From positions 64,604-105,940 of the forward strand of contig CAMDWQ010000005.1 of assembly GCA_945877765.1 (NCBI GenBank): a DNA stretch of 41,337 nucleotides, in the 5' to 3' direction. The translations under genes were made by a program, and so were the position numbers. Below the pieces are notes generated by a model. That model was not told the origin of the DNA, ran no database searches, and saw only the letters and a program-made list of their open reading frames with translations. Positions 11,601 to 35,975 of the stretch are shown in pieces. Source of the stretch: Candidatus Omnitrophota bacterium (lineage in GTDB: Bacteria > Omnitrophota > Gorgyraeia > 2-02-FULL-51-18). Within the stretch, counting starts at the first letter, position 1. Each line of letters opens with the position of its first letter.

Positions 11601-14600
11601 CGTAGGTTCCGCAGCGGGTCTGTCGACTCTAGCCGCATCTGTTAGTCCCTGCACTTCGTCCAGCTTCAGCTGGAGCAAATTCATAAAATGATCCTCCGGA
11701 CTGAGAGTATACGCCAAGCCGGTTTCGCGGATTATTTTGAGATCGTCAGCAAGGAGCGCTCCCAGAATGGTCCTTGCGGCCCTGAGAGATTGTCCAAACT
11801 GAGCAGCGGCTAAACCCTTACCCGGCGCTATCAAAAGTTTTATTTTTGGCGCCGACGATAAATCGACACTCTCGGATGTATAAGTGAGCTCTGCGCGATT
11901 TCTAAACGCAAGAACACTCGTGTACCCCATGTTCTCCAGAGCCTCTGTCAGGCGCTCTCTAACGCCTTGATTTTCATGCATCACGGCCACAGCGTCTGTC
12001 TTGGACAAAGCCCATCCTTCATCCGCAGGGCTTGCCAGCCTCGCTCCCTCAGCCCGCCCTGACTTCTTCAGCCTTCCCGCATGACCGTTTCCTTGGGATT
12101 CATAAATATCCTGAATAGCCCGGGCTAAACCAGTTTCATCGTTTGGATATTGACTAGCCAGATTAGCCGCGGTCTCTGTCAAAGTAAGCTTTGTGGTGAT
12201 TGACCGTCCCGCTGTAGGCGGTGTTAAATCTATTACTTCTTTCTCGACTATCCCTATTGGAACCAGATACGCCGCCATATGAACAATATCCGTCGAGCTT
12301 TGCTCTATCGCTTCTTTTATATCCTGAGAATACATGACTAAAAGATCATTCTGACGCATATATAGCAAAAGCCGCGCCGAGTCTATTGATTTTTTGGTTA
12401 ACTTTGTAACGGATTGCTTAGAAGGCTTATTTTTACTTACACCGTTTCCGCCCAGCTCCCTTTCCAGCTCCTCCTCGACAACAAGATCATCGGCTAACCG
12501 CCTACCCAAAATAGATGACTTGATCAGTTTAGGAGGCGCGTCAAAATATTGATGCAGTGCCAGTATTCTGGACACCTTAAGTGATTTTGATAAATTTCTG
12601 TAAAATTGAACCGCATCTTTTGTATATCCAGGGCTGATAACGAGTCTTATTGGATTAGCTTCGACGTCCAGTTCCCGTCTTTTAAACTCCCCCGGAATCA
12701 AATCTCGGCTTTGTAGAGAAATAACCCTGGTGTATTCAAATCTTTTTTCAAGGAGATCCGCCAAACGCTGACAGATGAGATTATCATGATGCAAGACAAG
12801 AACGGTGTCCGTTAAGGATATAGGTCGCGGCGCATCGGCCAGCCTCGCTCCGTCGTATGCATCGAGGAGACCCTGAATCGCTTGGGCCAATCCATTTAGG
12901 TTTTTTAGGTAAGCCTCGAGTAGATCAGCGCCTTGATTGGTCAGAGTGACATTTCTCTGAATCTCTATACTCTTGGCTTTCCTCCCAGCGGCAAGCACTT
13001 CCGTTTTGATATAGATCAGTTCCAGATCTTTCAACCACTCATCAATGGAATGCCACATGGATTCTGTCATCATTTCGTGCCCGGATGTAGCGATAGACAA
13101 CGAATCGTCGTCTGGCTGTTTGCCCAACATCATCAATCGATTTGCTAATTTTTTTGACTGCGGCGTCGCTTTGACCGTGTGGGGCTTAGCACTCTTGACC
13201 TTTATCGCGGCCGGTTTGGATTTTGACCTTGCTTCACGCAGATCCTGAATGCCGTGGGCCAATGCTTGCAACATTTCCTCGTCCTGGTCAGCCAACGGGT
13301 AGCGGGCGACCAAATCAAGACCAATCGGCAATAGAGTGGCCCGCGTCACTTCACTTTTACGAGTGCTGCCTCCAAAATGAGGAACACGAGCGACCACTTT
13401 ATCCGTGCTTATGAGTCCTCTTGCATTAAGATATCTGACCGTGTTTGGAAAATCTTTTGGTTCCAGCGACCATTTCTTATTTGCCTCTGTAACAGTTATG
13501 GCGTGTGATTTTATCTTGGCTAAATAGCTCACCATCCTTGCCGAATCCTGGGCGGCTTTTGTCAATTTTCGGACCTTCATCGTTTTGGAAGTCTTGACCG
13601 GAGCGCTCGCGCCAAGAGCCTCTAGCTCTGCCTTCAATGCAATCTCAACATCCGACGCATCAATCCACAGGTTCCCTAGAATAGGGTTACCAATAAACTT
13701 AATATCTTTCTCCGCTACAAAAAATCGCGGCAGATTCCGACCCCCGGCTACATTTACCGAGGATTTAAGTGCAAATATGAATTGGGTCCGTCCTCCGCGC
13801 TGATCCGGCCTAATCGCTAGTTTTATAACCCGGTCCCCTTCGTACAAACCAAGCTTCTCAAACTCCCCGGGTATGTCCCCTAAGCCCTTGCAAACAAGCA
13901 CAGTTGTAAATCCAAATGATGGCCCCCGGAGCAGCTCAGCCAAAAGGTTTCTGGCGTCTTCATTGTTGTGTATCACGGCGATGACATCCTCTTTTGCAAG
14001 AGTCCATGGAGTGCTCGGCACTGCTGAATCTGCGGCCGGGGCTTGTTTCCCTGCCAGCCGCGCGCCCTCTCTAGATAAATTAAGCGCTCCCTGAATCGCC
14101 CCGGCTAGAGCGTCTGCTTCACCCCCCCGGTGTAGCTCTACCAGCTCACGGCCACGCGGCGTGATTGTAAGTTTCACCACATTCCTCTTCTGCGTTCCAC
14201 CAAGGTGAGGAATGGCAGATCGTTCGATCGATTTCCGTGCCAGACCTTTGAGGCTAAGATAATTTGCCACGGACATAAACTGATGTTTTTTTAGATTTAA
14301 TTTGTTTAAGGCGTCCACCGAAAGAATAAGCGATTGCTTAGGATCTGCCAAATAAATCAACGCCCGCGCCGAGTTTTTGGACCTCGGCGTCAATGTTGTG
14401 CTTTTAGTTCTGGCAGACTGAGCCTCATATCTATCTATCTCTTGCCGGATTCTACGGCTAAGATCGTCTATACTGACATTCAAATAGGACAAATTTTTTT
14501 GGGTGATAATTCTCAAATCATCAGGAGGGGAAAAATAGGACTCCACACCTTGGAAGTGTACACCTCTAAGGTGTGAAGCGGTACCCGCAAGCGAAAATCC

Positions 14601-17600
14601 AACCCTATTTCCCAGCCTCAAGCTCTGTGCTATACTTGGGCTATGGAGCAACCAATCAGTCCCTACATTCACTGTGATAAAGAGATCCACCACGGGAGAG
14701 CTTGTTTTATCGGCACCCGAGTGCCGGTGTACATCGTCCTGGAGCTTCTCGAAGCCGGGGAAACTCCGGACGAGATATTGAAAGATTACCCCCGCTTGAC
14801 GCTCAAGCACATTCAGGCCGCTCTCCACTTTGCCGCCGAAACCCTGAAAAACGCGGAATATCCCCTCGTTGCCTGATTTTTCATCCGTCCAAACCCGGTA
14901 CCCCGCCTCCAAGACATGTGGAATCATCGTGATGAAATTCCACCCGATGATCAAAGAGGATATGTTGAACGCGCTAGAAAAATTATTTACAGATGTACCG
15001 CTGGAGACTATCCGCGGAAAGTTGATTATCCTTTTAAAGGATCGCCATTCACTTTCATAAGCAGACGCCAACCGCGCGGCGGGAGACGCCGTATTGGCTT
15101 TCACCAAAAATTTCCAGGCAGCTAGAGCGTCTTCCGCCGGTGAGCCCCGCTTAAATTCTGCTCTGAGGTTTTTTTCAGCGGTCGGTTTAACTTTTCGCTC
15201 CTCTTCGTCATACCGTGCATCGAAATAAATTCTTAACGCTTCTTTTAATTGCTCACGAGATACACCGGAAGTGCGATAAAATTGAAGTTCCTTGTTGTCA
15301 AAATCTTTCAGCCAACTGCTTGTTTTAAGTGCCACCTGTCTGTCCCGAAATTGCTGCGCCTGCTTGGCGGGAAGCTCTATCGCCTTAATCTTAGAAAACT
15401 GCCCCTGTGCCTCTGGCGACGGTGCCGATTCAATAGGAGAAGCATCACTAAAATTGTTTATAATCGTGTAGCCGCTTAATGCAGGGTCTTCTCGAAGGCT
15501 CCTCCGGGCCTCCTCGCCGGCATGCACGAGAACAACAACCTTGGAATCGACTTTCTGGATTAGTTGCACAACCTCCGCATGATCTCCGTGAGCCGTGAAA
15601 TTAATGTGAAGAATCTTCGCTTGGACTTTCTTCGTAGCACTGGTGCGTCCGTCGCGGAAAGGGGGGAATGTAAAATCTTTTCCCTTAGCTGTTCGCAGAA
15701 GCCTAAAAGCTGGGGAATCCTCGGCGAGCCATCCGACCATAATCACTGTATTTTTTTCGTCTTCAATCAATTTTTCTAGGTGTCCAATCGCCGTTCCTCC
15801 ATACAACATTCCCGAGCCGGCAATAATGACGCAGGGATCCTTATCAGGATGATCGGAATCCGTGATTTCGCGGATTGGGCTGTCGTTTCTAAACCAGGAT
15901 TTAAATTCCGCATAATCTGGATCGCCGCGGAGTTTTTTGACAGTTTCAACAGCCCCTCCGTCCATATAAATAGGGAAGTTTTTGGGTAATTCTCCTCTCT
16001 CAACGGCCTGCTTCAGAATCAACGCAATTTCCTCGGCGCGCCCCAAAATGAAAGCGGGGATTAAAACTTTTCCGCCGCGATTATAAGTTTCCCGAACCGC
16101 ATCAACCAACATTTTTCGCCTTTCTTCAATCGGCGGCAGATTTTGATGGGCATTGGTTGCATCAACAATGAATGTGCCTGTCTGAAGTGCTGGGGGAGAC
16201 ATCGCATTCGGCGGTAACGTCAAACGGCTGGTAGTCGACGTATCTCCGGAATAAGTAAAATTTCCGTAAGGCGTGGCCACTGTCAGTGACACAGCTCCAG
16301 GAATGTGGCCGGCGTGGCTCATAAATATTTTGACATCTTCTTGGGCCTGATACCACTGTCCGGTTTTGATCGTAACCAGAGAAGCAAAAACTTTTCCAAC
16401 TAGCTGCAACCATGCTATACGAGGGATGCGGGCGCCTCCTCCGAGCACATCCTTCCACTGGTCGAAAAGTAAGCGGGCGGTTGTTTGAGAAGAAATAATT
16501 TTCGCATCCGGATAATCCCGATGAAACCACGGCGCATACAAGCAATGATCCAGATGGGCATGCGTGATGAATGCGGCAACAGGCGTGTAGCCGCCCAAAG
16601 CTTCGCGTAGTTTCACGGATTTTTGTTCGATAGGGGTATCGGATTTTGGATCATGGCCCAGATCCAGAATCAGCGCTTTATTTCCAGGCATCTTGACCAC
16701 GATCAAGTTCCCACTGCCAGGCTCATAGCCGCCAACTAGCTGAAATTTGAGTTTATTCTCAAGCGTTTCTTCATTTGCCAACCGCACGCCCGCATCCACA
16801 CCCAAATTCTGAAGATCTTTAAAATTCAAAGTCAGCTGCTCTCTGAGGCTATCACTAACCAGCTCTCCAAGTATTTTTTGGCCTGTGACCCACTCATAAG
16901 CGGTCATAGCGGGATCGGCTGGTGTCTGAATCAGATGATTTGCGTTACGTAATTGAATTTCATGAATATTTCCTAAACTCAGCGAACCTATCTCGCCTGC
17001 AAGGTAATCAGGCAGGCTGGCTGATTTTTTTAGCAGCAATGGGTCTTGGGCAACTTCTCGAGCCATGTGACTTACTAACACACGATCTTCCGTATCTAAT
17101 ATCGCGCTTATAGTCTCTACGAATGACTTGTCCTTTATGTCTTCCCAAGATTCCTGTGATAAAGCCTGCTGAAATGCTGGAAATACCAAAGAATTAATCA
17201 CAGCTCTATGGATATCCCTTTTCAATTCCGAGCTTAAATCATCGTGCCTTTTTAAATATCCAAAAATGAATTTCAGGAGAGGCTTCAATACCAATAGATC
17301 TACCTCATCATCAGGGTCATAATATCGTCTTAAATGAGATCCATTGAGTCCCGCGCGCAGAGTCGCCGCGTTAATGTCATCATAAGTTTTGACATAGATT
17401 AAGAATTTCCTGTGCTGTTCTTTATAGCTAGCTATGTCTCGATAGTTCATCGTCGGCAAAGCCAGCCACTGTCCAAAACTTGGAAGCGTCACAGCCAGGG
17501 ATGACCTCTCCTCCTTCATTTGGGCAATGATCGCGTTTGCCTCACTTATCATTTTAGTTAGCTCGTCTTGATGGATCCCAACCAATAGGTCGATATTTTT

Positions 17601-19637
17601 GAGAACGTTCTCAGCAAAAGTGACCAATTTGCTCTCATCCGTTGAAAGGGATTTTATGAATAATTTAGTTGTATCGCTAAAGGAATCTGCACTTAATGAT
17701 TCCCATGAAGCCGGATGGATGATCGAGGGTTTCAGAGCATCAAGAAGCTTCCGTTGCAAAGCAGCAATTTGCTCGTCTACGGACTGCCCTGCCAACCGCG
17801 CGGCGCTGGGCAGAGTCACTTGCAGCTCCTTGGCCAAATCCTTCATAGTCGCCAGACGGCTCACGGCCGGAGTCAGCGGGCGATTCACAAGCGCCAGAAT
17901 TCCCATTTTGTCAGCGTTTGCAGAATTGCCCGCCGGTTTCTCACTCAAAAGAAGCTCTTCGTATCGTTTGCGATTTGTCTCCCCAAGCACCTGCGGCGTC
18001 ACGGAAACATACGAGATATTTTTAGATTTTAATAAGGCCTTCAAATTGGGGCTGTGGTAACCACCTGTGATGAGGATTGAAATACCGGATCGAGGATTGA
18101 GGATGGAGGATGGAGGGTTGTGTTTTCCTCTATCATCCATCCTCAATCCTCCATCCATTTTTATCCATTCTCTTTGAATTTTCTCTACAAACTTCTCATC
18201 ACGCTTTCGAGTTAGCTCATAGAAAGTCCGGCATTTTTGTAGAATCTCCTCATATCCCTCTTCCAGGAAGATCGCCTTGTCATAATTGTCTTTTAATTCC
18301 ATAATCCTGCGGTTTAAAAATCCGCTCATTTTGGTGATGTCAAAATCTTTTGGGTTTTCTTCATACGCGCGGAATTCATCGGGGGTCAGCGTGAGATTCA
18401 GAAGTGCCTTGAGATTTCGAAGCGCCAAAGACGCCTTGTGTAAAGCTTCCTCGTCGGGAACCTGGATGAGCGCCTTGTACACAGCGGCTTCCAAAAGTTT
18501 TTGCTCTTCCAAAAGCTCGGGGGTGTTTAAGTGTTGTGACTGGTTTAAGTATTCCAGGTAAAGTTTGAGATTGGGGTAGGCCTCGAGATTTTTAATTTTT
18601 TCTTCCAGTAGTTTCACCAAAACCAACTGCTGTGCGTGTCCGCTCTTGGCTGAGCTCGAAGAGAGCGCGGGTTTAAGCTCCTCTTGATCGGCGGAAGACA
18701 AGGAGGCAACAGCCTTTAATTGCTCGCGGCCGGCAAGGTCAAAATTGATGCGCGACTCTTGTTCTTTGAGGTGGCTAAATTTTTGGGCATTGGGGTAGCG
18801 GGCTACTTCCAAGCCTAGGGCGCGGGCTTGATCCATTAGAGCCACAAAATAATCCGCGATGGCTATTTTTTCCTTCAGAAAATCTTCATGCTTTTGGTCA
18901 AATGCCAGAAGAAAGGGATTAAACGTCTTAGATTTTAAAATTTGTGCGGTGTTGGCGGCTTTTTCAAGATACTCCTGGAATTTCTGTCGTTTTTTAACGA
19001 TGGCGCGGTACACCTCGAGCGACTGCCAGTAAAGAGACTCGTCCTCCACTCCAAGGAGAGTAAAATCATTCTTAGTGGTAAGGTTCAAGTATTCCGGCCC
19101 GGAAAGCTCTCCGGCTCTTAAATACTTAAGCCCGACATTTTCTCTTTTCTTGGGATCCGCGCCTTTCAAAGCCGTAAGCGATACATCCCCGAAGCCCGCT
19201 TCAACAAAAACAAATGGCTCGTCATTCCCGCGCAGACGAGAATCAGTTTGATCCCCGATTAAAGATCTCGGGGATGACATTGCAAGAGCTTTAGAAGATG
19301 ATAATAAACTCTCCAGAATTTTAGCGATATTTTTTTGCCCTGAAAAATTAGTATGAGGGTCTTGGATAAGAATGACGGTTTTGGTGCCAGAGGGGTCAGA
19401 CCCCTGTGGTACCTGGTAGGCGTCTTCGATTGTGGCTACTGATTCAGGGATTGGGGGAAGTAGCTTTTTAGCCCAATGAAGGTTTTTTTGTTTTTGCCCT
19501 CCATCCTCAATCCTCCATCCTAGATCCGCTTTTAAGAGTTCAGGTGCCGCATACGAAAAGTCTTGAATTACAAGACATAAAACTAGCGTGGAAGCGATCC
19601 ATTTTAGGCCGCACGTTCTGACCGCTTTAGAAATCAT
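8658..19637 (-). CDS. Giant exported multidomain protein with repeated ARLA junction motifs
   Basis: This is one uninterrupted frame of 3,659 residues from the ATG at 19637. That start opens a Sec signal peptide (MISKAVRTCGLKWIASTLVL, cleaved near SYAAP). The frame is open to 19736, giving the 3,692-residue numbering used here, but the promoter TATAAT at 19686-19681 lies inside that extra part. Order of parts: an N-terminal domain (about 60-640); a helical region (645-980); a complete beta-CASP metallo-beta-lactamase (about 995-1490); an insert of 178 residues read antisense to a toxin-antitoxin cassette (1558-1736); six repeat modules (about 1738-3366); and an unknown C-terminal domain (3367-3692). 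(G/A/V)RLA pentapeptides sit at residues 645, 983, 1553, 1891, 2296, 2564, 2822, 3104 and 3367, nearly always at domain borders. No function for the whole is known to me. A polyprotein cut at ARLA sites, or a modular envelope machine, are both possible. Confidence 0.9.
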   Translation of the reverse strand: MISKAVRTCGLKWIASTLVLCLVIQDFSYAAPELLKADLGWRIEDGGQKQKNLHWAKKLLPPIPESVATIEDAYQVPQGSDPSGTKTVILIQDPHTNFSGQKNIAKILESLLSSSKALAMSSPRSLIGDQTDSRLRGNDEPFVFVEAGFGDVSLTALKGADPKKRENVGLKYLRAGELSGPEYLNLTTKNDFTLLGVEDESLYWQSLEVYRAIVKKRQKFQEYLEKAANTAQILKSKTFNPFLLAFDQKHEDFLKEKIAIADYFVALMDQARALGLEVARYPNAQKFSHLKEQESRINFDLAGREQLKAVASLSSADQEELKPALSSSSAKSGHAQQLVLVKLLEEKIKNLEAYPNLKLYLEYLNQSQHLNTPELLEEQKLLEAAVYKALIQVPDEEALHKASLALRNLKALLNLTLTPDEFRAYEENPKDFDITKMSGFLNRRIMELKDNYDKAIFLEEGYEEILQKCRTFYELTRKRDEKFVEKIQREWIKMDGGLRMDDRGKHNPPSSILNPRSGISILITGGYHSPNLKALLKSKNISYVSVTPQVLGETNRKRYEELLLSEKPAGNSANADKMGILALVNRPLTPAVSRLATMKDLAKELQVTLPSAARLAGQSVDEQIAALQRKLLDALKPSIIHPASWESLSADSFSDTTKLFIKSLSTDESKLVTFAENVLKNIDLLVGIHQDELTKMISEANAIIAQMKEERSSLAVTLPSFGQWLALPTMNYRDIASYKEQHRKFLIYVKTYDDINAATLRAGLNGSHLRRYYDPDDEVDLLVLKPLLKFIFGYLKRHDDLSSELKRDIHRAVINSLVFPAFQQALSQESWEDIKDKSFVETISAILDTEDRVLVSHMAREVAQDPLLLKKSASLPDYLAGEIGSLSLGNIHEIQLRNANHLIQTPADPAMTAYEWVTGQKILGELVSDSLREQLTLNFKDLQNLGVDAGVRLANEETLENKLKFQLVGGYEPGSGNLIVVKMPGNKALILDLGHDPKSDTPIEQKSVKLREALGGYTPVAAFITHAHLDHCLYAPWFHRDYPDAKIISSQTTARLLFDQWKDVLGGGARIPRIAWLQLVGKVFASLVTIKTGQWYQAQEDVKIFMSHAGHIPGAVSLTVATPYGNFTYSGDTSTTSRLTLPPNAMSPPALQTGTFIVDATNAHQNLPPIEERRKMLVDAVRETYNRGGKVLIPAFILGRAEEIALILKQAVERGELPKNFPIYMDGGAVETVKKLRGDPDYAEFKSWFRNDSPIREITDSDHPDKDPCVIIAGSGMLYGGTAIGHLEKLIEDEKNTVIMVGWLAEDSPAFRLLRTAKGKDFTFPPFRDGRTSATKKVQAKILHINFTAHGDHAEVVQLIQKVDSKVVVLVHAGEEARRSLREDPALSGYTIINNFSDASPIESAPSPEAQGQFSKIKAIELPAKQAQQFRDRQVALKTSSWLKDFDNKELQFYRTSGVSREQLKEALRIYFDARYDEEERKVKPTAEKNLRAEFKRGSPAEDALAAWKFLVKANTASPAARLASAYESEWRSFKRIINFPRIVSSGTSVNNFSSAFNISSLIIGWNFITMIPHVLEAGYRVWTDEKSGNEGIFRVFQGFGGKVESGLNVLERQAGVIFQYLVRSFPGFEKLQDDVHRHSGADKTSSPVVDLFITVNVGTDWLLHSPSIAQSLRLGNRVGFSLAGTASHLRGVHFQGVESYFSPPDDLRIITQKNLSYLNVSIDDLSRRIRQEIDRYEAQSARTKSTTLTPRSKNSARALIYLADPKQSLILSVDALNKLNLKKHQFMSVANYLSLKGLARKSIERSAIPHLGGTQKRNVVKLTITPRGRELVELHRGGEADALAGAIQGALNLSREGARLAGKQAPAADSAVPSTPWTLAKEDVIAVIHNNEDARNLLAELLRGPSFGFTTVLVCKGLGDIPGEFEKLGLYEGDRVIKLAIRPDQRGGRTQFIFALKSSVNVAGGRNLPRFFVAEKDIKFIGNPILGNLWIDASDVEIALKAELEALGASAPVKTSKTMKVRKLTKAAQDSARMVSYLAKIKSHAITVTEANKKWSLEPKDFPNTVRYLNARGLISTDKVVARVPHFGGSTRKSEVTRATLLPIGLDLVARYPLADQDEEMLQALAHGIQDLREARSKSKPAAIKVKSAKPHTVKATPQSKKLANRLMMLGKQPDDDSLSIATSGHEMMTESMWHSIDEWLKDLELIYIKTEVLAAGRKAKSIEIQRNVTLTNQGADLLEAYLKNLNGLAQAIQGLLDAYDGARLADAPRPISLTDTVLVLHHDNLICQRLADLLEKRFEYTRVISLQSRDLIPGEFKRRELDVEANPIRLVISPGYTKDAVQFYRNLSKSLKVSRILALHQYFDAPPKLIKSSILGRRLADDLVVEEELERELGGNGVSKNKPSKQSVTKLTKKSIDSARLLLYMRQNDLLVMYSQDIKEAIEQSSTDIVHMAAYLVPIGIVEKEVIDLTPPTAGRSITTKLTLTETAANLASQYPNDETGLARAIQDIYESQGNGHAGRLKKSGRAEGARLASPADEGWALSKTDAVAVMHENQGVRERLTEALENMGYTSVLAFRNRAELTYTSESVDLSSAPKIKLLIAPGKGLAAAQFGQSLRAARTILGALLADDLKIIRETGLAYTLSPEDHFMNLLQLKLDEVQGLTDAARVDRPAAEPTLVQKAAAKVLVYLAGQPEASVHFLQAGDLWEMDPKTFSKAARQYLLPLKLVSRKEVPVEIADKRQGTRTISTKELSIEDPGRELVTKYQGDPDALARAIKDLERPVLADGARLAESGKKMKSTGAAWPWIVSATEPIAVMEWNDDAREKLVEALREIGFTKVLSFKDRGQALNQDMYHDLSLGKDFIRLLVTPDKRIRPDKALSPYRVLPLTDSQAQTRQYFHEDPWVIQGVYLKSKSTDLETLVKMLKKELDTISFPDRTPDSPPVRRTPTPYELKLASALVALAAQSHPIIDGPDAEQLWGVNRDGSYTIQENLQAIGLIDVGERRKRSVQSNGSLRNVRVNTLALTPLGRDLADRHKEDPEALARQLQLLRRKIKADAAAIPQSGSATGARLAAPEEAAGMLQVTDSVAVIHPDAEARGRLVRAMEKRGFESVIASNSLGGINQLFRQNTSQLTGGPIRLIIAPGFKRSASNVLGYLPQDVRPKFVSQDLILIRQPARDLSVDNEGEVEAALDAALKKVQAIVEVTPVKSALWAERSAAILIYLADSNHPTLSTLEVMQMYEFSHTSIFSALKRYLQSMNLVESKFIPASSIVGGGEKNTQVTQLTLSPEGRRVVAESEGDQKVLALAIQNIYTAAAAAKRARAKAYPAKIGARLAEESRGPRLAGFGATLAGFDELVLAVNSQGHLMALETSDRIAILSFRKKFPGQVQVYVGNRPFRIVKSRSGKTRGAQAAELISYQDLINTLKAFDRRFNQPLPKELAEKPIEAYLHLDSFKGLSIQDQAEAVKTLIYSIAARKTKYLEIHLVGEDRLVKLAQAVIASSSRLREKPFTVGDQIQHQEASQVHLLSQDYLKINRIALLGQATAKGVKARFVKIQDLVHDNNMEDIVLPNPLLSLMDRVGAIENLSVEDAVFNQVYEWFKNLTGFALSKEEFLGLILGDEALINLYAVPPTLRAVDLAEAMNAHAHFRRLSEQAA
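8661..9638 (-). other. C-terminal domain of the giant protein (unrecognised)
   Basis: After the last GARLA motif (residue 3367) comes a short Gly/Leu-rich stretch with two further near-motifs (GPRLAG, GATLAG). About 320 residues of mixed alpha/beta sequence follow, with no family I recognise. It starts LVLAVNSQGHLMALETSDRI and ends in helices to SEQAA. It shares no obvious sequence with the repeat modules. Confidence 0.5.
9639..10427 (-). repeat. Giant-protein repeat module 6 (receiver-like fold + winged helix)
   Basis: Begins with GARLA. The receiver-like half reads VTDSVAVIHPDAEARGRLVR, then FESVIAS and RLIIAPGFK. The winged-helix half reads AAILIYLADSNHPTLSTLEV, with a wing around EKNTQVTQLTLSPEGRRVV and a last helix KVLALAIQNIY. 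It aligns by eye with modules 2-5. The acidic pocket and phosphoacceptor Asp of true receivers are absent. Confidence 0.65.
10428..11273 (-). repeat. Giant-protein repeat module 5
   Basis: Begins with GARLA. It holds VSATEPIAVMEWNDDAREKL, then FTKVLSFKDRG and RLLVTPDKR in the receiver-like half. The winged-helix half has KLASALVALAAQSHP, with a wing NVRVNTLALTPLGRDLA and last helix EALARQLQLL. At 282 residues it is slightly longer than modules 3, 4 and 6. Confidence 0.65.
11274..12047 (-). repeat. Giant-protein repeat module 4
   Basis: Begins with GARLA. The receiver-like half reads KTDAVAVMHENQGVRERLTE, then YTSVLAFRNRA and KLLIAPGKG, and ends LADDLKIIRETGL. The winged-helix half reads AAAKVLVYLAGQPEASVHFL, with a wing around RTISTKELSI and last helix DALARAIKDLE. 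It is 258 residues and the clearest copy for defining the unit. Confidence 0.7.
12048..12851 (-). repeat. Giant-protein repeat module 3
   Basis: Begins with GARLA. The receiver-like half reads LTDTVLVLHHDNLICQRLAD, then YTRVISLQSRD and RLVISPGYT. The winged-helix half reads SARLLLYMRQNDLLVMYSQD, with a wing around RSITTKLTLTETAANLA and last helix TGLARAIQDIYES. It is 268 residues. Confidence 0.68.
12852..14066 (-). repeat. Giant-protein repeat module 2, with a second winged helix
   Basis: Begins with GARLA. The receiver-like half reads KEDVIAVIHNNEDARNLLAE, then FTTVLVCKGLG and KLAIRPDQR. It is followed by two winged-helix domains. The first has RKSEVTRATLLPIGLDLV. The second is linked by a Lys/Ala/Pro-rich stretch and has QRNVTLTNQGADLLEA, then NGLAQAIQGLL. 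At 405 residues it is about one winged helix longer than its neighbours, which points to local duplication. The two winged helices are not separated by an ARLA motif. Confidence 0.65.
14067..14530 (-). repeat. Giant-protein repeat module 1, N-terminally truncated
   Basis: Only the end of the receiver-like half remains (DDLRIITQKNLSYLNVSIDD, equivalent to DDLKIIRETGLAYTLSPEDH of module 4). A complete winged-helix half follows: SARALIYLADPKQSLILSVD, wing RNVVKLTITPRGRELV, last helix DALAGAIQGAL, ending at GARLA. The missing part is exactly where the toxin-antitoxin cassette starts, so the cassette replaced about 100 residues of this module. Confidence 0.6.
14544..14575. repeat. 32-bp imperfect palindrome at the cassette border
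   Basis: CACACCTT at 14544-14551 and AAGGTGTG at 14568-14575 are exact inverse partners, and the centre GTGTACAC is itself palindromic. Most of the 32 bases are symmetrical. It sits about 55 bases before the -10 box of the DUF433 gene, so it could be an operator, a recombination site or a border hairpin. On the other strand it is translated as part of the giant protein. Confidence 0.6.
14608..14636 (+). promoter_or_regulatory. Leaderless promoter of the DUF433 gene
   Basis: TATACT (14631-14636) is followed by exactly six bases and then the ATG at 14643. A weak -35 candidate, TTTCCC, lies 17 bases before it. The spacing to ATG is identical to that of mutY and the desaturase gene. Confidence 0.55.
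14643..14876 (+). CDS. DUF433 family antitoxin
   Basis: This 77-residue protein reads YIHCDKEIHHGRACFIGTRV, then PVYIVLELLEAGETPDEILK, then YPRLTLKHIQAALHFAAE. This is the full DUF433 pattern (ixxdpxixgGkpvIkGTRvpV...yP.Lt..di.aal.yaa), a helix-turn-helix antitoxin paired in many genomes with DUF5615 PIN-like toxins. It runs opposite to, and entirely inside, the giant gene. Its match to the family over its whole length argues that this strand, not the minus strand, is the original coding strand here. Confidence 0.85.
   Translation: MEQPISPYIHCDKEIHHGRACFIGTRVPVYIVLELLEAGETPDEILKDYPRLTLKHIQAALHFAAETLKNAEYPLVA
14869..15060 (+). pseudogene. DUF5615 PIN-like toxin, C-terminal remnant
   Basis: This frame overlaps the end of the DUF433 gene by eight bases and starts at TTG. 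It reads PDFSSVQTRYPASKTCGIIV, then MKFHP, then DVPLETIRGKLIILLKDRHS. It fits only the last half of a DUF5615 protein (DF..xxRYPxxxxxGIIVlrl...pxexlxGxLvvv). The N-terminal half, which carries the acidic active-site residues, is missing, so the toxin should be dead. It lies in the normal toxin position right after DUF433. Confidence 0.6.
15240..16775 (-). other. Beta-CASP metallo-beta-lactamase domain of the giant protein
   Basis: All sequence signatures of CPSF/RNase J-type beta-CASP nucleases are present. THAHLDH (residues 1058-1064) binds metal, SHAGHIPGA gives the next His, and YSGDTS gives the bridging Asp. IPAFILGRAEEI and AGSGMLYGG are typical of the beta-CASP cap. AHGDH (about residue 1381) and LVHAGEE (about 1403) supply the late histidines. 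Catalytic residues look intact, so hydrolase activity on RNA or a related phosphodiester is expected. Its place inside a protein with a Sec signal peptide is unusual, because relatives are cytoplasmic. Confidence 0.85.
16791..17804 (-). other. Alpha-helical region between ARLA motifs of the giant protein
   Basis: Residues 645-980 lie between AARLA and GVRLA. They are mostly helical, with patches such as LRRYYDPDDEVDLLVLKPLL and a run of short amphipathic helices. I recognise no family. It is flanked by the N-terminal domain and the beta-CASP enzyme. Confidence 0.4.
18092..18158. repeat. Inverted pair of GGATGGAGGATTGAGGATGG elements inside the giant gene
   Basis: A run of GGATTGAGGATGGAGGATGG type (18094-18117) faces its inverse complement CATCCTCAATCCTCCATCC (18138-18157) across a short loop. 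On the minus strand the pair encodes KMDGGLRMDDRGK and PPSSILNPRSG, a segment that looks foreign to the surrounding helices. A third copy lies at 19498-19521. Confidence 0.7.
19220..19281. repeat. Dispersed palindromic repeat inside the giant gene
   Basis: GTCATTCCCGCGCAGACGAG is followed by TGATCCCCGATT and CTCGGGGATGACAT. It is the same family as the intergenic copies at 2447, 28626 and 40149. Here it is read as coding sequence (MSSPRSLIGDQTDSRLRGND) within the N-terminal domain. Confidence 0.75.
19383..19413. repeat. AGGGGTCAGACCCCT palindrome inside the giant gene
   Basis: AGGGGTCAGACCCCT (19391-19405) lies inside a longer near-palindrome bounded by GGTGCCA and TGGTACC. It encodes YQVPQGSDPSGTK on the minus strand. 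This kind of palindrome is a common dispersed element in bacterial genomes. It lies about 100 bases from the next repeat. Confidence 0.6.
19498..19521. repeat. Third copy of the GGATGGAGGATTGAGGATGG element
   Basis: On the minus strand this reads GGATGGAGGATTGAGGATGG and encodes the WRIEDGG stretch right after the signal peptide. It matches the pair at 18092-18158. Confidence 0.65.
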
Positions 19638-19680
19638 GGGCGGCTTCCGTGGGTTCGCGTTTTGGTTTATAAGTATAGGT

Positions 19681-19710
19681 ATTATATGGGCTTGGGAACA
19701 TACAGAAAAT
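19681..19710 (-). promoter_or_regulatory. Likely promoter of the giant gene
   Basis: On the minus strand TATAAT (19686-19681) lies about 44 bases before the ATG at 19637. The -35 region, 17 bases further up (TTTTCT), is weak. A GGAA patch precedes the ATG. The frame is open upstream of this box, but the box and the signal peptide together favour the downstream start. Confidence 0.45.
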
Positions 19711-19780
19711 ATGCCTGATGGCGGGCTAAAAAGCAAATAAATTATAATCTATAACTAATTTGTTTCCATAGAGTTACAAC

Positions 19781-30185: not shown

Positions 30186-31643
30186 ATGTCCTCCTTCTTA
30201 AATATTCACTGGCCACTGCTTACCACCGAGATTGCGCTCATTTCATTTGCCATTCTCATGATGATCTGGGACCTTTTTATCCCCGATACCGAAAAACGAG
30301 GCAAATTGCTGGCAAATGCGGCCCTCATTGGCGTCGCAGGCCTGACCATCCTGCAAGTCCTACGCTGGGGTATTTTTGGCACGACGCTGGGGGGCAGTTT
30401 TATTCAGGATGGCGTGTCCTCGTTTTTCAAAGTAATCTTCTGTCTCTCGGCCTTCTTCACTCTTTTTATGGCACGCGACTATCAGGCTAAGCTCAAGCGC
30501 GGCCACGGCGAGTTTACTCTCCTGGTCCTTTTTAGCCTCATCGGCATTCTGTTTTTAGCCTCCGCGAATGATTTTCTGCTTTTTTTCATCTCACTTGAAA
30601 TTTTAAGTATTTCTCTTTATATCATGACCGCTTATTTAAAAGACGACGCGCGCTCCATTGAAGCCGGCATCAAATACATCGTGCTGGGCGCACTGTCTAC
30701 TGCTGTTTTTCTCTATGGCTTAAGTTTTATCTATGGCACCACCGGCAGCACTTCTTACCTCGAGATTCAAAAAAATCTCGCCCTCATGCCCAGCATCCCG
30801 ACTGGCTTTATTTTTGGAATGATCTTGGTAGTTTCGTCGCTAGCCTTTAAAATTGCGGCGGTTCCGTTTCATCTGTGGGTGCCGGATATTTATGAGGGGG
30901 CTCCGGCGCCGGTGGTCTCTTTTCTTGCCACCGCTTCCAAAGCCGCGGGGTTTCTGGCGCTCATTCGCCTTTCAATGACCGTCTTTGCGCCGCTGGAGAC
31001 GACGCTTGCGGCCATCTACAGCGTCCTAGCAGTCCTGACAATTATTTACGGCAATCTGGGCGCTATCCCGCAAACCAATATCAAGCGGCTCATGGGTTAT
31101 TCCAGTATAGGACACGCCGGTTATTTATTGATTGGCCTTGCGGCTTTCGGCTCTTCGGGGAAAGAAGCAATCCTGTTTTATCTTTTGAGTTATCTTTTTA
31201 GCACGGCGGGGATATTTCTTGTCATTGTAGCACTTTCAAAAACAGCCAAAACCAGTCAGATTAGCGAATACGCGGGACTCGGTCAAAGGTCTCCCGTGCT
31301 TGCCGCCGGGATGCTGATTTCTTTATTGTCTTTAGCGGGAGTGCCGCCGCTATCAGGATTTTTGGCGAAGTTTTATCTTTTATGGGCAGGTGTCAAAGCC
31401 GGTTACCTATGGCTTGTGATCGTCGGGATTCTCAACGTCGTGATATCGCTTTATTACTATTTAAAAATTGTGAAGACGATGTATTTAGAAAAACCTTCGG
31501 ATTTATCTCCGCTAAACGTCACAGCTTCGCAGAAAGCAATGCAGTACTTCTCAATGTTTGCGATCGTGCTCTTGGGAGTCTGGCCGGGTCCTTTTGTCCA
31601 TTGGGCCCAAACCGCTTTTACCGCCGTACTTAGTCTCCGCTAA
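30186..31643 (+). CDS. nuoN: NADH-quinone oxidoreductase subunit N
   Basis: This 485-residue antiporter-like subunit has FFISLEILSISLYIMTAYLK, FKIAAVPFHLWVPDIYEGAP, PVVSFLATASKAAGFLALIR and YSSIGHAGYLLIGL. It ends GVWPGPFVHWAQTAFTAVLS-LR. The last 24 codons recur, diverged but in frame and with the stop, at 34697-34767. It is the last gene of the nuo block, facing the accessory island. Confidence 0.96.
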   Translation: MSSFLNIHWPLLTTEIALISFAILMMIWDLFIPDTEKRGKLLANAALIGVAGLTILQVLRWGIFGTTLGGSFIQDGVSSFFKVIFCLSAFFTLFMARDYQAKLKRGHGEFTLLVLFSLIGILFLASANDFLLFFISLEILSISLYIMTAYLKDDARSIEAGIKYIVLGALSTAVFLYGLSFIYGTTGSTSYLEIQKNLALMPSIPTGFIFGMILVVSSLAFKIAAVPFHLWVPDIYEGAPAPVVSFLATASKAAGFLALIRLSMTVFAPLETTLAAIYSVLAVLTIIYGNLGAIPQTNIKRLMGYSSIGHAGYLLIGLAAFGSSGKEAILFYLLSYLFSTAGIFLVIVALSKTAKTSQISEYAGLGQRSPVLAAGMLISLLSLAGVPPLSGFLAKFYLLWAGVKAGYLWLVIVGILNVVISLYYYLKIVKTMYLEKPSDLSPLNVTASQKAMQYFSMFAIVLLGVWPGPFVHWAQTAFTAVLSLR

Positions 31644-31669
31644 AAAACCTAAAGAAGTCCCAGGACTTC
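31642..31669 (-). terminator. Possible terminator overlapping the mazF-like stop
   Basis: On the minus strand GAAGTCC, TG, GGACTTC is a perfect seven-base stem (31669-31654), followed after six bases by six Ts (31647-31642). The hairpin lies within the last codons of the mazF-like gene. The T-run is a little distant, so strength is uncertain. The same stem could also slow transcription coming out of nuoN. Confidence 0.4.
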
Positions 31670-31996
31670 ACGAATTTTCGCATCCACCTTATTCAATACA
31701 TTAGGCCCTAAACAACCAAGCTGTCTGACAGCGTGGGATCTCGTTATACGCGCAATCTTATCGGACTTTATTAAAGTTGGGGCTTTTAAACCGGTCGCAG
31801 GAAATTCAGGATCGTTATTGTCAATTAGAATATCATAGGAAAAGGCGTTGCTAATTTTAGAGGACAATGCGACAAAGATTGGATCAGTATTTAATCGGTT
31901 ATATTGATCTGAGGATATAACAAGAGCGGGGCGAACCTTCGTTGTTGTTGCATCAGAAAATGGAAACTTAATGAGAACAATGTCACCTCGTGTCAT
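31649..31996 (-). CDS. MazF/PemK-family endoribonuclease toxin
   Basis: This 115-residue protein begins MTRGDIVLIKFPFSDATTTK followed by VRPALVISSDQYN. This is the GDIVL(v/i).fPFsd...kxRPalVis signature of MazF/PemK mRNA interferases. Later come VALSSKIS, then GLKAPTLIKSDKIARITRSH, with the conserved Thr/Ser-Lys-Asp segment. Its ATG overlaps the stop of the antitoxin-like gene (ATGA), the normal antitoxin-toxin arrangement. It lies in the accessory island just downstream of nuoN on the opposite strand. Confidence 0.9.
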   Translation of the reverse strand: MTRGDIVLIKFPFSDATTTKVRPALVISSDQYNRLNTDPIFVALSSKISNAFSYDILIDNNDPEFPATGLKAPTLIKSDKIARITRSHAVRQLGCLGPNVLNKVDAKIREVLGLL

Positions 31997-32242: not shown

Positions 32243-32644
32243 CTATATCGCCTTTGCTTCCCGCAATAAAAATTTTCTAGAAATAATTAGATTGTCATGG
32301 CAATAAAAATCAAAACGATAATTTCCAAATTCAGGAAAACGCAATCCTCGAAATTCAAAATTTAATTCAATTTTTTCCTGAGGATTTTTACAATTAATTC
32401 GTGCATTTAACCCGCCTAGAGCCCTGTCAGTATCTTCATGGATGCATTTGAGTGAGCAATCATACTCCCCATTACCCTCTGTTAAAACTAAAAAAACATT
32501 CAGTCTTGGATGCGCGCAAGGTGCTTTGGATGAGTTAATGTTGTCAAAAAGCCCTATTAATGACTTTTTACTCGTCATTTTGTCTTCAATGACGGAGTCA
32601 CAAATGATCATCGCTAAAGGGATTAAATCAGGTTTATTAGACAT
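32243..32644 (-). CDS. DUF6941-like protein
   Basis: A 133-residue protein from the ATG at 32644 (MSNKPDLIPLAMIICDSVIE), preceded by an AAGAGG ribosome site. The frame is open to 32698 without support. The N-terminal stretch, ALxICDxVIEDxxTxKxSLIG-(l/i)F, is the hallmark of DUF6941. It forms a small beta-rich fold of unknown function that recurs as an accessory gene in many bacteria. Its place ahead of a MazEF-like pair in a variable island is typical of cargo genes. Confidence 0.7.
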   Translation of the reverse strand: MSNKPDLIPLAMIICDSVIEDKMTSKKSLIGLFDNINSSKAPCAHPRLNVFLVLTEGNGEYDCSLKCIHEDTDRALGGLNARINCKNPQEKIELNFEFRGLRFPEFGNYRFDFYCHDNLIISRKFLLREAKAI

Positions 32645-32968
32645 ATAGCCTCTTTTTTGAATGGGCAATAGTTTACCAGTAAAATATTTCCTACGCAAAC
32701 CATACCGCTACGAGTAACCATATGCAAAGCTGGTTGTAGTATACCTGATAATCGGGCCTGTTTAAAGGCCCGCTGCGTTGCTCGTTCTCTATTCTGAGCT
32801 CCCCGCGAAAATAACTACCCCGATTTGGGGTTCGAATGAGCGTCCAAATTGGCTCCCTCGATTGGACGAATTTCGCAACGCCTTTTTGTACGAAAATATC
32901 TTTGAAACTAACCCACACTTCCAATCAGTAGAACTTACTTTTGGGCACTTATAACCAGAAATGCCAAA
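32645..32968. other. Non-coding gap between the secY-like and DUF6941-like genes: promoter and repeat
   Basis: No convincing gene lies here. It holds a minus-strand promoter (TTTAAA at 32766-32761, 17 bases, TATACT at 32743-32738) for the DUF6941-mazEF run. A hairpin GGGCCTGTTTAAAGGCCC overlaps its -35. A repeat lies at about 32821-32860 (CCCCGATTTGGGGTTCGAAT then GAGCGTCCAAATTGGCTC), which recurs at 36466-36500. The small open frames here come from that repeat. Confidence 0.55.
32738..32766 (-). promoter_or_regulatory. Promoter for the DUF6941-mazEF-like operon
   Basis: Minus-strand TTTAAA (32766-32761), 17-base spacer, TATACT (32743-32738). The -35 overlaps one arm of a GGGCC...GGCCC hairpin. 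The leader to the ATG at 32644 is about 85 bases, unlike the leaderless genes elsewhere in the window. Confidence 0.5.
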
Positions 32969-34429
32969 TCAAATTGTCGGATTGTCAACTTTCAGAATTA
33001 GATTCCTCGCCTCAGATATTTTGTCTGATGGCGTATAAATACGATATTGGTCTATCATTGTCCGAATCGGCATTCCCCAACTGAAACGAAACGGCTCTAT
33101 TAAACTCTTTATGCCGTGTGTTTTCAAATACATCGTCTTTATTTCGGCCTCTGGCTCAGTAAACGCCGTATAGCAGACGCCCCAATCCTTTTCACTGGAC
33201 TCCTGCTTCGACTTAAAGAAGTTTACTTGGCTTAATGTATCCAATAGAACTCCAATAAATACAATAATGGAGAAATGCGGGATTAACCCAAACGCTATAC
33301 TTGATTTTCCGCCAATCTCATTTACACCTACATATTCTTCCAGAAGATCGGGCAAGACAAACGCAGCAATGAGAAACAGAGCCGCTATTTTTAAGTTCTC
33401 ATTCATTCGTTGCTTTAAAAGATCCGTTCCTTCTATCGAAAATCCAAATTGCCTGATTTGTCCTGCCATACGATTGGAATCAAAAACGACCCGCGAATAT
33501 AAAAATGTCAGCCAAAAAATAGCGGCAATAACGTAAACGAGATAGCTAATATAACTCTTATCAAATAAGGTACTACAGAACGGAATAATAAAAGCTATCT
33601 TAGTATAGGAAATAGCTTCTCGGCCCACCATGGTCGGACGAAAATTAAGGGTGCCCACCTCAGCATTATTTCGATTTATTTTCACTGTGGTTTTCTTGTT
33701 ATAAAAATAATAAGCGCCATAAATGAGCATGGCCGTCAGTAAAATAATTAGTGGTGCCGTGCCTGGCGATGAAATCCTGTTTGCTGGTTCAGAACTCATC
33801 AATGCGGTCGAAAAGCGCTGACAGTACACTATAAAATCAATAAATAAAGGGGAAATAATGACCCACGCATAGCCATTTCCTATTCCTCGGCGATTAATCA
33901 TCTCCGCTAAGAAAATGATGAGAACGACTGCAGAGGTCATCGTCAAAACACACGTGATTTGGAACACCATACCCGGATTTGAAACGATCGAGATTCCACC
34001 AAAACGATTCGGATTTTGTAACCAAAGGCTGATTATAAAACTCTGTATCACCGATAAAGCTAGAGTCAGAGCATATGTATATTGGACAATTTTAGCCCTG
34101 CCCTTTTCATCGCCCATTAAATATCCCCGAAGTAGCGGCATGACAACAGAAGCTAGTTGAAGCAACAAACATGAGCTGACAAATGTCATCATGCCCAATG
34201 AGAATATAGAAATTCGCGCACTTTTCAAAACATTGTATTGAAAAATAGGAGACGGTTTGTCGCCGATTCCACGCATGAACATCTCCACACGAGACAGATC
34301 AATACCAGGAATGGGAATCATAAAAGCGAGTCTGAGAAGAGCAACAACAGCAACCGTGAAAATGAGCCGTTTTCTCATTTCAACGTCCTTGATCAGCCAT
34401 TGCACAAGCTCTGTGAATGAATGTTTCAT
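32969..34429 (-). CDS. SecY-like translocase with C-terminal DUF2007-like domain
   Basis: A 486-residue protein from the ATG at 34429, with an AATAGGGA ribosome site. The longer frame to 34447 lacks one. The SecY core is clear: KRLIFTVAVVALLRLAFMIP followed by IPGID, then SIFSLGMMTFVSSCLLLQLA, KIVQYTYALTLALSVIQS and RRGIGNGYAWVI. These match SecY helices 1-5. The sequence is divergent in the second half. About 65 residues after the last helix form a DUF2007-like domain (AEIKTMYLKTHGIKSLIEPF then DKISEARNLI). The gene is far from any ribosomal protein operon, so it is probably a second SecY. No SecA2 or cargo gene is nearby. Confidence 0.82.
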   Translation of the reverse strand: MKHSFTELVQWLIKDVEMRKRLIFTVAVVALLRLAFMIPIPGIDLSRVEMFMRGIGDKPSPIFQYNVLKSARISIFSLGMMTFVSSCLLLQLASVVMPLLRGYLMGDEKGRAKIVQYTYALTLALSVIQSFIISLWLQNPNRFGGISIVSNPGMVFQITCVLTMTSAVVLIIFLAEMINRRGIGNGYAWVIISPLFIDFIVYCQRFSTALMSSEPANRISSPGTAPLIILLTAMLIYGAYYFYNKKTTVKINRNNAEVGTLNFRPTMVGREAISYTKIAFIIPFCSTLFDKSYISYLVYVIAAIFWLTFLYSRVVFDSNRMAGQIRQFGFSIEGTDLLKQRMNENLKIAALFLIAAFVLPDLLEEYVGVNEIGGKSSIAFGLIPHFSIIVFIGVLLDTLSQVNFFKSKQESSEKDWGVCYTAFTEPEAEIKTMYLKTHGIKSLIEPFRFSWGMPIRTMIDQYRIYTPSDKISEARNLILKVDNPTI

Positions 34430-34477
34430 AGTTGTCCCTATTGCCATTGATCTGCGTATACAATGAGTCTACTTCAA

Positions 34478-34697: not shown

Positions 34698-34767
34698 AGG
34701 AGTATGGCCGGGTCCTTTTGTCCGGTGGGCCCAACCCGCTTTTACCGCTACGCTCGGCCTCCGCTAA
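34697..34767 (+). pseudogene. Duplicate of the 3' end of nuoN
   Basis: The plus strand encodes GVWPGPFVRWAQPAFTATLG-LR and a stop, against GVWPGPFVHWAQTAFTAVLS-LR in nuoN. Several changes are synonymous. The fragment begins where the nrdA copy ends, at a shared GGAG. It continues past the stop with sequence resembling that after the real nuoN (AAGCCCCAGG against AAGTCCCAGG). Confidence 0.85.
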
Positions 34768-34793
34768 AAAAAATTCGGTAAGCCCCAGGCGTA

Positions 34794-35975
34794 TTATTTT
34801 GGGCATAGGCCCCAAAAACTTTTTCCTTTAGTATAATCCTCTTTGGCCTTTCTGACCCTGCCTTCCCTGGCCGCCTGTAAACCACCTCGAACAGCGTTTA
34901 ACGCTTTTTCATTTTTGTATAACCATGCTTCACTATTTTTGACATCTATCAACAACCGTTCTCGATTCAGTTCCCGGATAAGCTCTGCTTCCGTGGGCAA
35001 ATACAGTTTGTATCTTGAGGCAAATATTTGGCGGTTGTCTTTTGAAAGGGTGTACCGGACAACCGCTTCTTTTTTATCTTCGCATAAAATAAGACCCACC
35101 GTCGGGTTGTCGTCCGGTTGTTTTACCTCTCGATCATAATAATGGACATACATCTGCATCTGCCCGATATCCTGGTGGACAAGTTTACCGACCTTTAGAT
35201 CGATGATCAAATAGCATTTTAATATCGTATGGTAGAACACAAGATCGATATAGAAGTGGTCTCCATCGAGTGATATGCGCTTTTGCCTGGCCACGAAAGT
35301 AAAGCCTTTGCCCAATTCGAGCAGAAATTTCGATAAATTATCAACCAGCGCTTGTTCCAATGTGCTTTCATAAAGCTTGGCTTGCGGAGACAATCCGGTG
35401 AATTCCAAGACATACGGATCTTTGATTATATCGTCGTAGCTACGAATCTCCTGGCCTTTTTGTGCCAATTTCGTAAGGCCTTTCTTGTCTTTACTCAAAG
35501 CCAGCCGCTCAAAGAGAAGAGAGCCTTTTTGGCGCTCAAGCTCCCGCGCCGACCAGCTGTTTTGGACGGATTCAATTTCATAGAACGAACGCGCCTTGGG
35601 ATTATCCACCCGCATCAGAATACGATAATGTGTCCAGCTTAATTCGTGACGCAGTGCGTCACGTTTTGGATAGCACATATAGAAATACCGAATATTGCGT
35701 AAATTGGACTCGTCAAACCCCTTGCCAAAATCAGCAGTAAGTTGGTCAGAAAGTCTCTTTAAAATCGCCTCTCCGTATTCGGCCCGAGACTTTCCTTTCT
35801 GCTCTTCTTCCACAATCTCGCGTCCGATATGCCAATAGGCGGCGACCATTTCGGTGTTGATGGCACGTACAATATTTCCTCTGGAATTTTCAATGATTTT
35901 GCGTATGCGATCGTAGATCCCTTTCGCTTGCACGCTAGATTTGATCAATCCGTCAGTTTTTCTTTTAGATTTCAT
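34794..35975 (-). CDS. DUF1016/YhcG-family PD-(D/E)XK nuclease
   Basis: This 393-residue protein has an N-terminal helical DUF1016 region (RAINTEMVAAYWHIGREIVE, then SDQLTADFGKGFDESNLRNI, then LSWTHYRILMRV). It has a C-terminal PD-(D/E)XK nuclease fold, with FYIDLVFYHTILKCYLIIDL and K in DLKVGK as the active site, and GQMQMYVHYYD as the following helix. These proteins are common accessory genes whose natural substrate is unclear to me, with DNA binding or cleavage inferred from the fold. The start lies next to a frameshifted zeta-toxin remnant. Confidence 0.92.
   Translation of the reverse strand: MKSKRKTDGLIKSSVQAKGIYDRIRKIIENSRGNIVRAINTEMVAAYWHIGREIVEEEQKGKSRAEYGEAILKRLSDQLTADFGKGFDESNLRNIRYFYMCYPKRDALRHELSWTHYRILMRVDNPKARSFYEIESVQNSWSARELERQKGSLLFERLALSKDKKGLTKLAQKGQEIRSYDDIIKDPYVLEFTGLSPQAKLYESTLEQALVDNLSKFLLELGKGFTFVARQKRISLDGDHFYIDLVFYHTILKCYLIIDLKVGKLVHQDIGQMQMYVHYYDREVKQPDDNPTVGLILCEDKKEAVVRYTLSKDNRQIFASRYKLYLPTEAELIRELNRERLLIDVKNSEAWLYKNEKALNAVRGGLQAAREGRVRKAKEDYTKGKSFWGLCPK

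Follow-up and report, generated by a model that had tools for sequence, protein, structure and literature searches.

An accessory SecY with a fused DUF2007-type tail in Omnitrophota

Why would a bacterium carry, in addition to its housekeeping SecY, a diverged SecY-like channel that ends in a soluble domain? The question is raised by a gene, here secY2 (32969..34429, minus strand), in the 41,337-nucleotide stretch that we analyzed (the window). The window comes from a 1.65-Mb metagenome assembly, 98% complete, of a Candidatus Omnitrophota bacterium. The first-pass annotation had described the gene as a second SecY in an accessory island away from ribosomal genes, with divergence in its second half and a DUF2007-like tail, and had speculated that it exports a very large protein encoded nearby.

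A second SecY in an island

The secY2 reading frame contains two candidate start codons, a first ATG at 34447 (32969-34447, 492 residues) and a second at 34429 (486 residues). The second ATG is the more probable start, since AATAGGGACAACT lies upstream of it and the first has nothing before it that resembles a ribosome-binding site. Thus, the coordinates first assigned to the gene, 32969-34429, fit.

The protein is clearly a SecY, as annotated. It passed the cut-off of the Pfam SecY family PF00344 (101.1 bits versus 32.2; E 1e-28) over nearly the whole profile (1-305 of 306), and a sequence search matched it to SecY chains in the PDB at E about 1e-27. An AlphaFold2 model made with nine homologues (mean pLDDT 71.6, pTM 0.75), in which the plug and loops were poorly defined, had SecY 5aww_Y as its top Foldseek match (E 5.1e-14, TMt 0.73). 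The PF00344 match (residues 80-404), the model helices and Foldseek together delimit a ten-helix channel part comprising residues up to 411 (33215..34429, minus strand). NCBIfam gave only the general SecY model (TIGR00967, the housekeeping equivalog), which scored 108.8 bits, far under its cut-off of 253.6.

We determined whether secY2 is the housekeeping copy of its genome. The housekeeping secY (376 bits) lies on another contig, in the order rpsE-rplO-secY-adk, and the two proteins are 27% identical. This excludes secY2 as the housekeeping copy, as well as the possibility, raised with the first-pass annotation, that the genome holds no other secY; the gene is indeed a second copy, and the secY of the ribosomal operon is a different gene. 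Similarly, four carrier genomes, reached via loci L048, L049, L052 and L053, each had one strong housekeeping secY together with a single weaker paralogue. We also rejected an assembly artefact or pseudogene, since intact copies of the reading frame occur in at least two phyla and dN/dS is well below 1.

Canonical secE and secA were present in 14/14 Omnitrophota carriers, the host genome having a normal copy of each. No second secA of canonical size was seen in the carriers, and a search of the 14 for a second SecE recovered only a fusion, described below. Neither a second secA nor accessory export genes occurred among the neighbors in the window or the neighbors shared across loci.

The accessory-island location is supported by low GC and by duplication of the 3′ end of nuoN. 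GC content is 0.375-0.41 at 32-34 kb, versus about 0.48 in most of the window. The island is bounded by a 73-bp direct repeat (85% identical, E 2e-19), the left copy of which is the nuoN 3′ end (31575..31647, plus strand), while the right copy (34699..34771, plus strand) still reads GVWPGPFVRWAQPAFTATLGLR-stop. Such a duplication is what an element inserted at the 3′ end of nuoN would leave. Between the repeats, secY2 is accompanied by genes for a PemK/MazF-like toxin homologue (31649..31996) and a DUF6941 protein (32243..32698), both on the minus strand. Adjoining the island is a gene for a YhcG/DUF1016 nuclease-like protein (34794..35975, minus strand), which is a PADLOC candidate (PDC-S02). 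Further diverged direct repeats near the island (32812-32855/36457-36500 and 34602-34702/36506-36606; 88-89% identical) are possibly older element boundaries.

At the other SecY2 loci, the neighbors are mostly ordinary metabolic genes and the neighborhoods differ, and thus no operon partner is implied. An all-against-all comparison of neighbors likewise found no operon partner conserved across lineages. The neighbors that recurred were DUF1016 at two loci and DUF5674 with a small ORF at two (in genomes G301 and G045); in family f17, metabolic genes have been vertically kept around the gene. In G045, a gene encoding DUF1016_N and a staphylococcal-nuclease-like domain (L111:7704-8759) begins about 30 bases after the paralogue on the same strand. 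Related proteins without a Pfam match are encoded near the accessory SecY at two loci of a second phylum (L049:2209-2943 and L074:7300-8058).

The DUF2007-type tail and its distribution

To the channel part is fused a C-terminal domain (32969..33214, minus strand) with a predicted beta-alpha-beta-beta-alpha fold. Alone, the window tail (residues about 412-492) had no Pfam match even at E<10, and as a single sequence it missed the DUF2007 (PF09413) cut-off. For the tails of its relatives, DUF2007 was the best Pfam family (E 0.001 to 0.05, under cut-off), and the tail of the G292 paralogue reached E 1e-4 in a genome-wide search. The tail of the second SecY of G045, a genome with 8% estimated contamination, scored above the DUF2007 cut-off (27.6 versus 25.7 bits), with no clear match to the main tail profile. 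Comparison by hhalign of a 15-tail profile with 21 free-standing DUF2007 proteins of Omnitrophota gave a probability of 96.6 (E 5.5e-10, 65 columns), as against at most 0.67 for 20 column-shuffled controls. The best PDB match of the tail model, although weak (E 0.012), was the DUF2007 protein RPA1041 (2hfv), which shares the fold. Since the G045 tail passes the Pfam cut-off, the profiles match and the best PDB match is 2hfv, we conclude that the tail is related to DUF2007. The soluble DUF2007-type tail of the first-pass annotation is therefore upheld; the sensor-like character also suggested for it would derive from the DUF2007 family name only. The SecY2 tail differs from DUF2007 in forming its own subfamily, in carrying a WG[ML]P[IV]RT motif in most members and in being found here always at the end of a SecY. 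Among open-licence papers, we found none that joins SecY to DUF2007.

Using the tail profile, we surveyed two phyla. Matches were found in 14/384 Omnitrophota genomes, in 3/46 genomes of a second phylum (that including the record labelled Deltaproteobacteria nXXbin1) and at eight loci in named genome records. All matches that were read lay at the C-terminal end of SecY-like ORFs, which were about 475-560 residues long. Thus, the fusion of SecY and tail is conserved across Omnitrophota and the second phylum. The tail does not lack conservation in orthologues, a possibility raised with the first-pass annotation; it is their best-conserved part, and WG[ML]P[IV]RT is among the best-conserved stretches. 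Presence is patchy, as G083 lacks SecY2 despite belonging to the same genus as the carrier G049, and none of the 12 other genomes of the window's own family shows a second SecY; the incompleteness of metagenome assemblies weakens such absences. No viral, phage or plasmid homologues of the tail were found, including among viral contigs.

A tree built from the channel part placed all of the 21 paralogues on one side of a branch and the 30 housekeeping sequences, including Thermus, in one group (support 94). Branches were long, leaving the inner order unsure, and some SecY2 members were extremely diverged in the channel part (branch lengths >3). The codons of secY2 are under purifying selection in both parts: dN/dS of close pairs was 0.08-0.18 for the whole gene, with channel and tail both constrained. 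Because the same combination recurs in distant relatives, we conclude that SecY2-DUF2007 is a real, little-noticed kind of accessory channel. The best reading of its distribution is that secY2 is an accessory gene moved between genomes in islands.

Loops C4 and C5 and a probable pairing with SecE

SecY2 shares with housekeeping SecY (PF00344, TIGR00967; Thermus thermophilus 5aww) the ten-helix fold and the TM2 LGxMP, GIGNG and TM10 motifs; most accessory members retain the TM2 LGxxP, GIGNG and TM10 G/D/Q positions. It differs in that PGxRPG is lost, loop C4 is shortened and a DUF2007 domain stands in for the C-tail, and its gene is unlinked from ribosomal genes, patchy and mobile.

The motif is missing from cytoplasmic loop C5 (TM8-TM9; 33398..33484, minus strand), where it contains the residue corresponding to E. 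coli R357. When 29 housekeeping sequences were aligned with 21 accessory ones, PG[VI]R(P/S/A)G/PGxRPG was found in 29/29 of the former and 0/21 of the latter. Relative to housekeeping SecY, cytoplasmic loop C4 (TM6-TM7; 33623..33700, minus strand) has lost both length and basic charge, with means of 26 residues and +2.1 as against 34 residues and +6.5. Quantitation of the housekeeping-conserved columns kept in the accessory family gave means of 0.38-0.42 in most membrane segments, versus 0.28 in TM7, 0.24 in C4 and 0.12 in C5, the least conserved region of SecY2. The divergence first noticed in the second half of the protein is thus real.

Published descriptions have the R357/RPG site conserved throughout the domains of life, and regard it as a probable switch for coupling to SecA and the ribosome. 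It has been tied to SecA coupling (PMC4826270), and in SecY R357E the opening of the plug is blocked even though SecA binding is not abolished (PMC6021171). Given the effect of R357E, the absence of the C5 motif and the shorter, less basic C4, the sequences indicate a family that has lost the part coupling SecY to its usual drivers and bears a new domain at its C-terminus.

Although SecE pairing is a property of housekeeping SecY, for SecY2 it is inferred. In G301, a single ORF (L045:646-2331) encodes SecY, a DUF2007-type tail and a SecE-like segment. The last was detected at E 3.4e-4 genome-wide (Pfam 16.4 bits, under the cut-off of 22.7) and is 29% identical to G301's own SecE (E 2e-7). This single natural fusion strongly hints at SecE as the partner of the family, although it falls short of proof.

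Proposed role and alternatives

We propose that SecY2, a paralogue of housekeeping SecY, acts as an accessory translocon subunit that has spread in islands. It would form a channel with SecE, either the host's or, where fused, its own, and this channel would still pass or insert polypeptides while no longer being coupled to SecA or the ribosome through C4 and C5. The DUF2007 module, which follows TM10 and should be cytosolic by SecY topology, replaces the usual short C-tail and, from its place beside TM10, may be where a dedicated partner or ligand now docks or gates the channel. A channel docked or gated in this way could therefore serve a narrow substrate set without competing with essential SecYEG for SecA and ribosomes. 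We give this reading, an accessory SecY-SecE channel decoupled from SecA and the ribosome and docked or gated via the DUF2007 module, about an even chance of being correct. Against it, the carriers have neither a second SecE or SecA nor a conserved partner gene in common, and C4 and C5 may have lost sequence by drift in a protein that has ceased to translocate. A stronger form, in which SecY2 would define a ligand- or partner-controlled class of SecY that has dropped the almost universal SecA/ribosome coupling site, uses a fused PII-like DUF2007 for docking or gating and in one lineage became a SecY-DUF2007-SecE chain, is offered tentatively.

SecY2 might instead be ordinary accessory Sec, in which the channel uses host SecA and the tail tunes substrate choice. 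In streptococci and staphylococci, the SecA2/SecY2 (aSec) system has linked secA2, Asp and glycosyltransferase genes. Its SecY2, like that of the window, is a diverged extra SecY that accompanies the housekeeping copy (PMC6973325). The window SecY2 differs in lacking these linked genes, in its DUF2007 tail and in the phyla that carry it. Canonical secA and secE in every carrier and the retained channel motifs are compatible with use of host SecA. However, the site tied to SecA coupling (PMC4826270) is absent in 21/21 accessory copies and C5 is the least conserved region, neither a second secA nor accessory export genes adjoin secY2, and the NCBIfam score is that of the general SecY model only; we consider this reading unlikely. 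We judge equally improbable a pseudo-translocon, which would conduct no polypeptide and would serve as a regulator, scaffold or decoy by binding SecE, a ligand or membrane proteins. Degraded C4 and C5 speak for such a protein, as does a conserved tail on a channel part that is extremely diverged in some members, yet most members keep the TM2, GIGNG and TM10 positions and dN/dS is low in both channel and tail.

Two further readings start from neighboring genes. The channel could be cargo of a mobile or defence island that acts with nuclease or toxin genes, for example by moving or blocking a toxic product at the membrane. The PemK-like toxin gene in the island, the adjoining YhcG/DUF1016 gene and the DUF1016_N-nuclease gene following the G045 paralogue fit this idea. 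Since most other loci have ordinary metabolic neighbors, with a stable metabolic context in f17, PADLOC has no match for SecY2 itself and the tail has no plasmid, phage or viral-contig matches, we regard it as very unlikely. Still less credible, to the point that we give it almost no weight, is the export role first suggested for SecY2, in which its substrate would be the giant encoded at 8.7-19.7 kb. The two genes share the window, and giant ORFs are typical of Omnitrophota (PMC10066038). However, relatives of the N-terminal part of this giant occur in 42/57 other genomes searched, including 12/12 other family members, none of which shows a second SecY, while G026 and G049 carry SecY2 without such a giant. 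Genomes with at least two SecA_DEAD matches, used as a rough stand-in for the presence of SecA-domain giants, were also not significantly enriched among carriers (4/14 versus 58/370 other genomes; one-sided Fisher p 0.17).

The giant itself (8658-19736) is a 3,692-residue ORF with a likely signal peptide and an internal metallo-beta-lactamase/beta-CASP/RMMBL module; relatives of its N-terminus are numerous in the same genome and found throughout the family. In two giant ORFs, of 20,415 residues (L067:5860-19899; G035, C94) and 11,957 residues (L072:3-19901; G080, C26), SecY (125 and 103 bits, respectively) is followed by SecA parts (DEAD, preprotein-binding; P-loop or wing), and by their domains they appear to place channel, motor and giant passenger in a single chain. 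Divergent SecA domains have been reported in giants of this kind; our literature search of open-licence papers found no description of a SecY domain in them. Like SecY2, both have a divergent SecY domain outside the ribosomal operon and no intact PGxRPG in the two read; unlike SecY2, they show no DUF2007 tail and are fused to SecA and thousands of further residues. Other giants have SecA domains without a Pfam SecY (L063:9149-19900 in G385, L064:2-11866 in G194 and L065:2-15001 in G096), that of G385 running on into peptidase M23 and glycosyl hydrolase 76 domains.

A SecY family that recurs under selection without R357/RPG offers a natural way to learn what purpose that switch serves, and whether a SecY channel can operate with a different partner. 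In G301, the SecE fusion supplies a single-chain construct ready for use. On our best reading, Sec channels move as accessory genes between uncultured bacteria, an exchange that plain "SecY" annotation hides.
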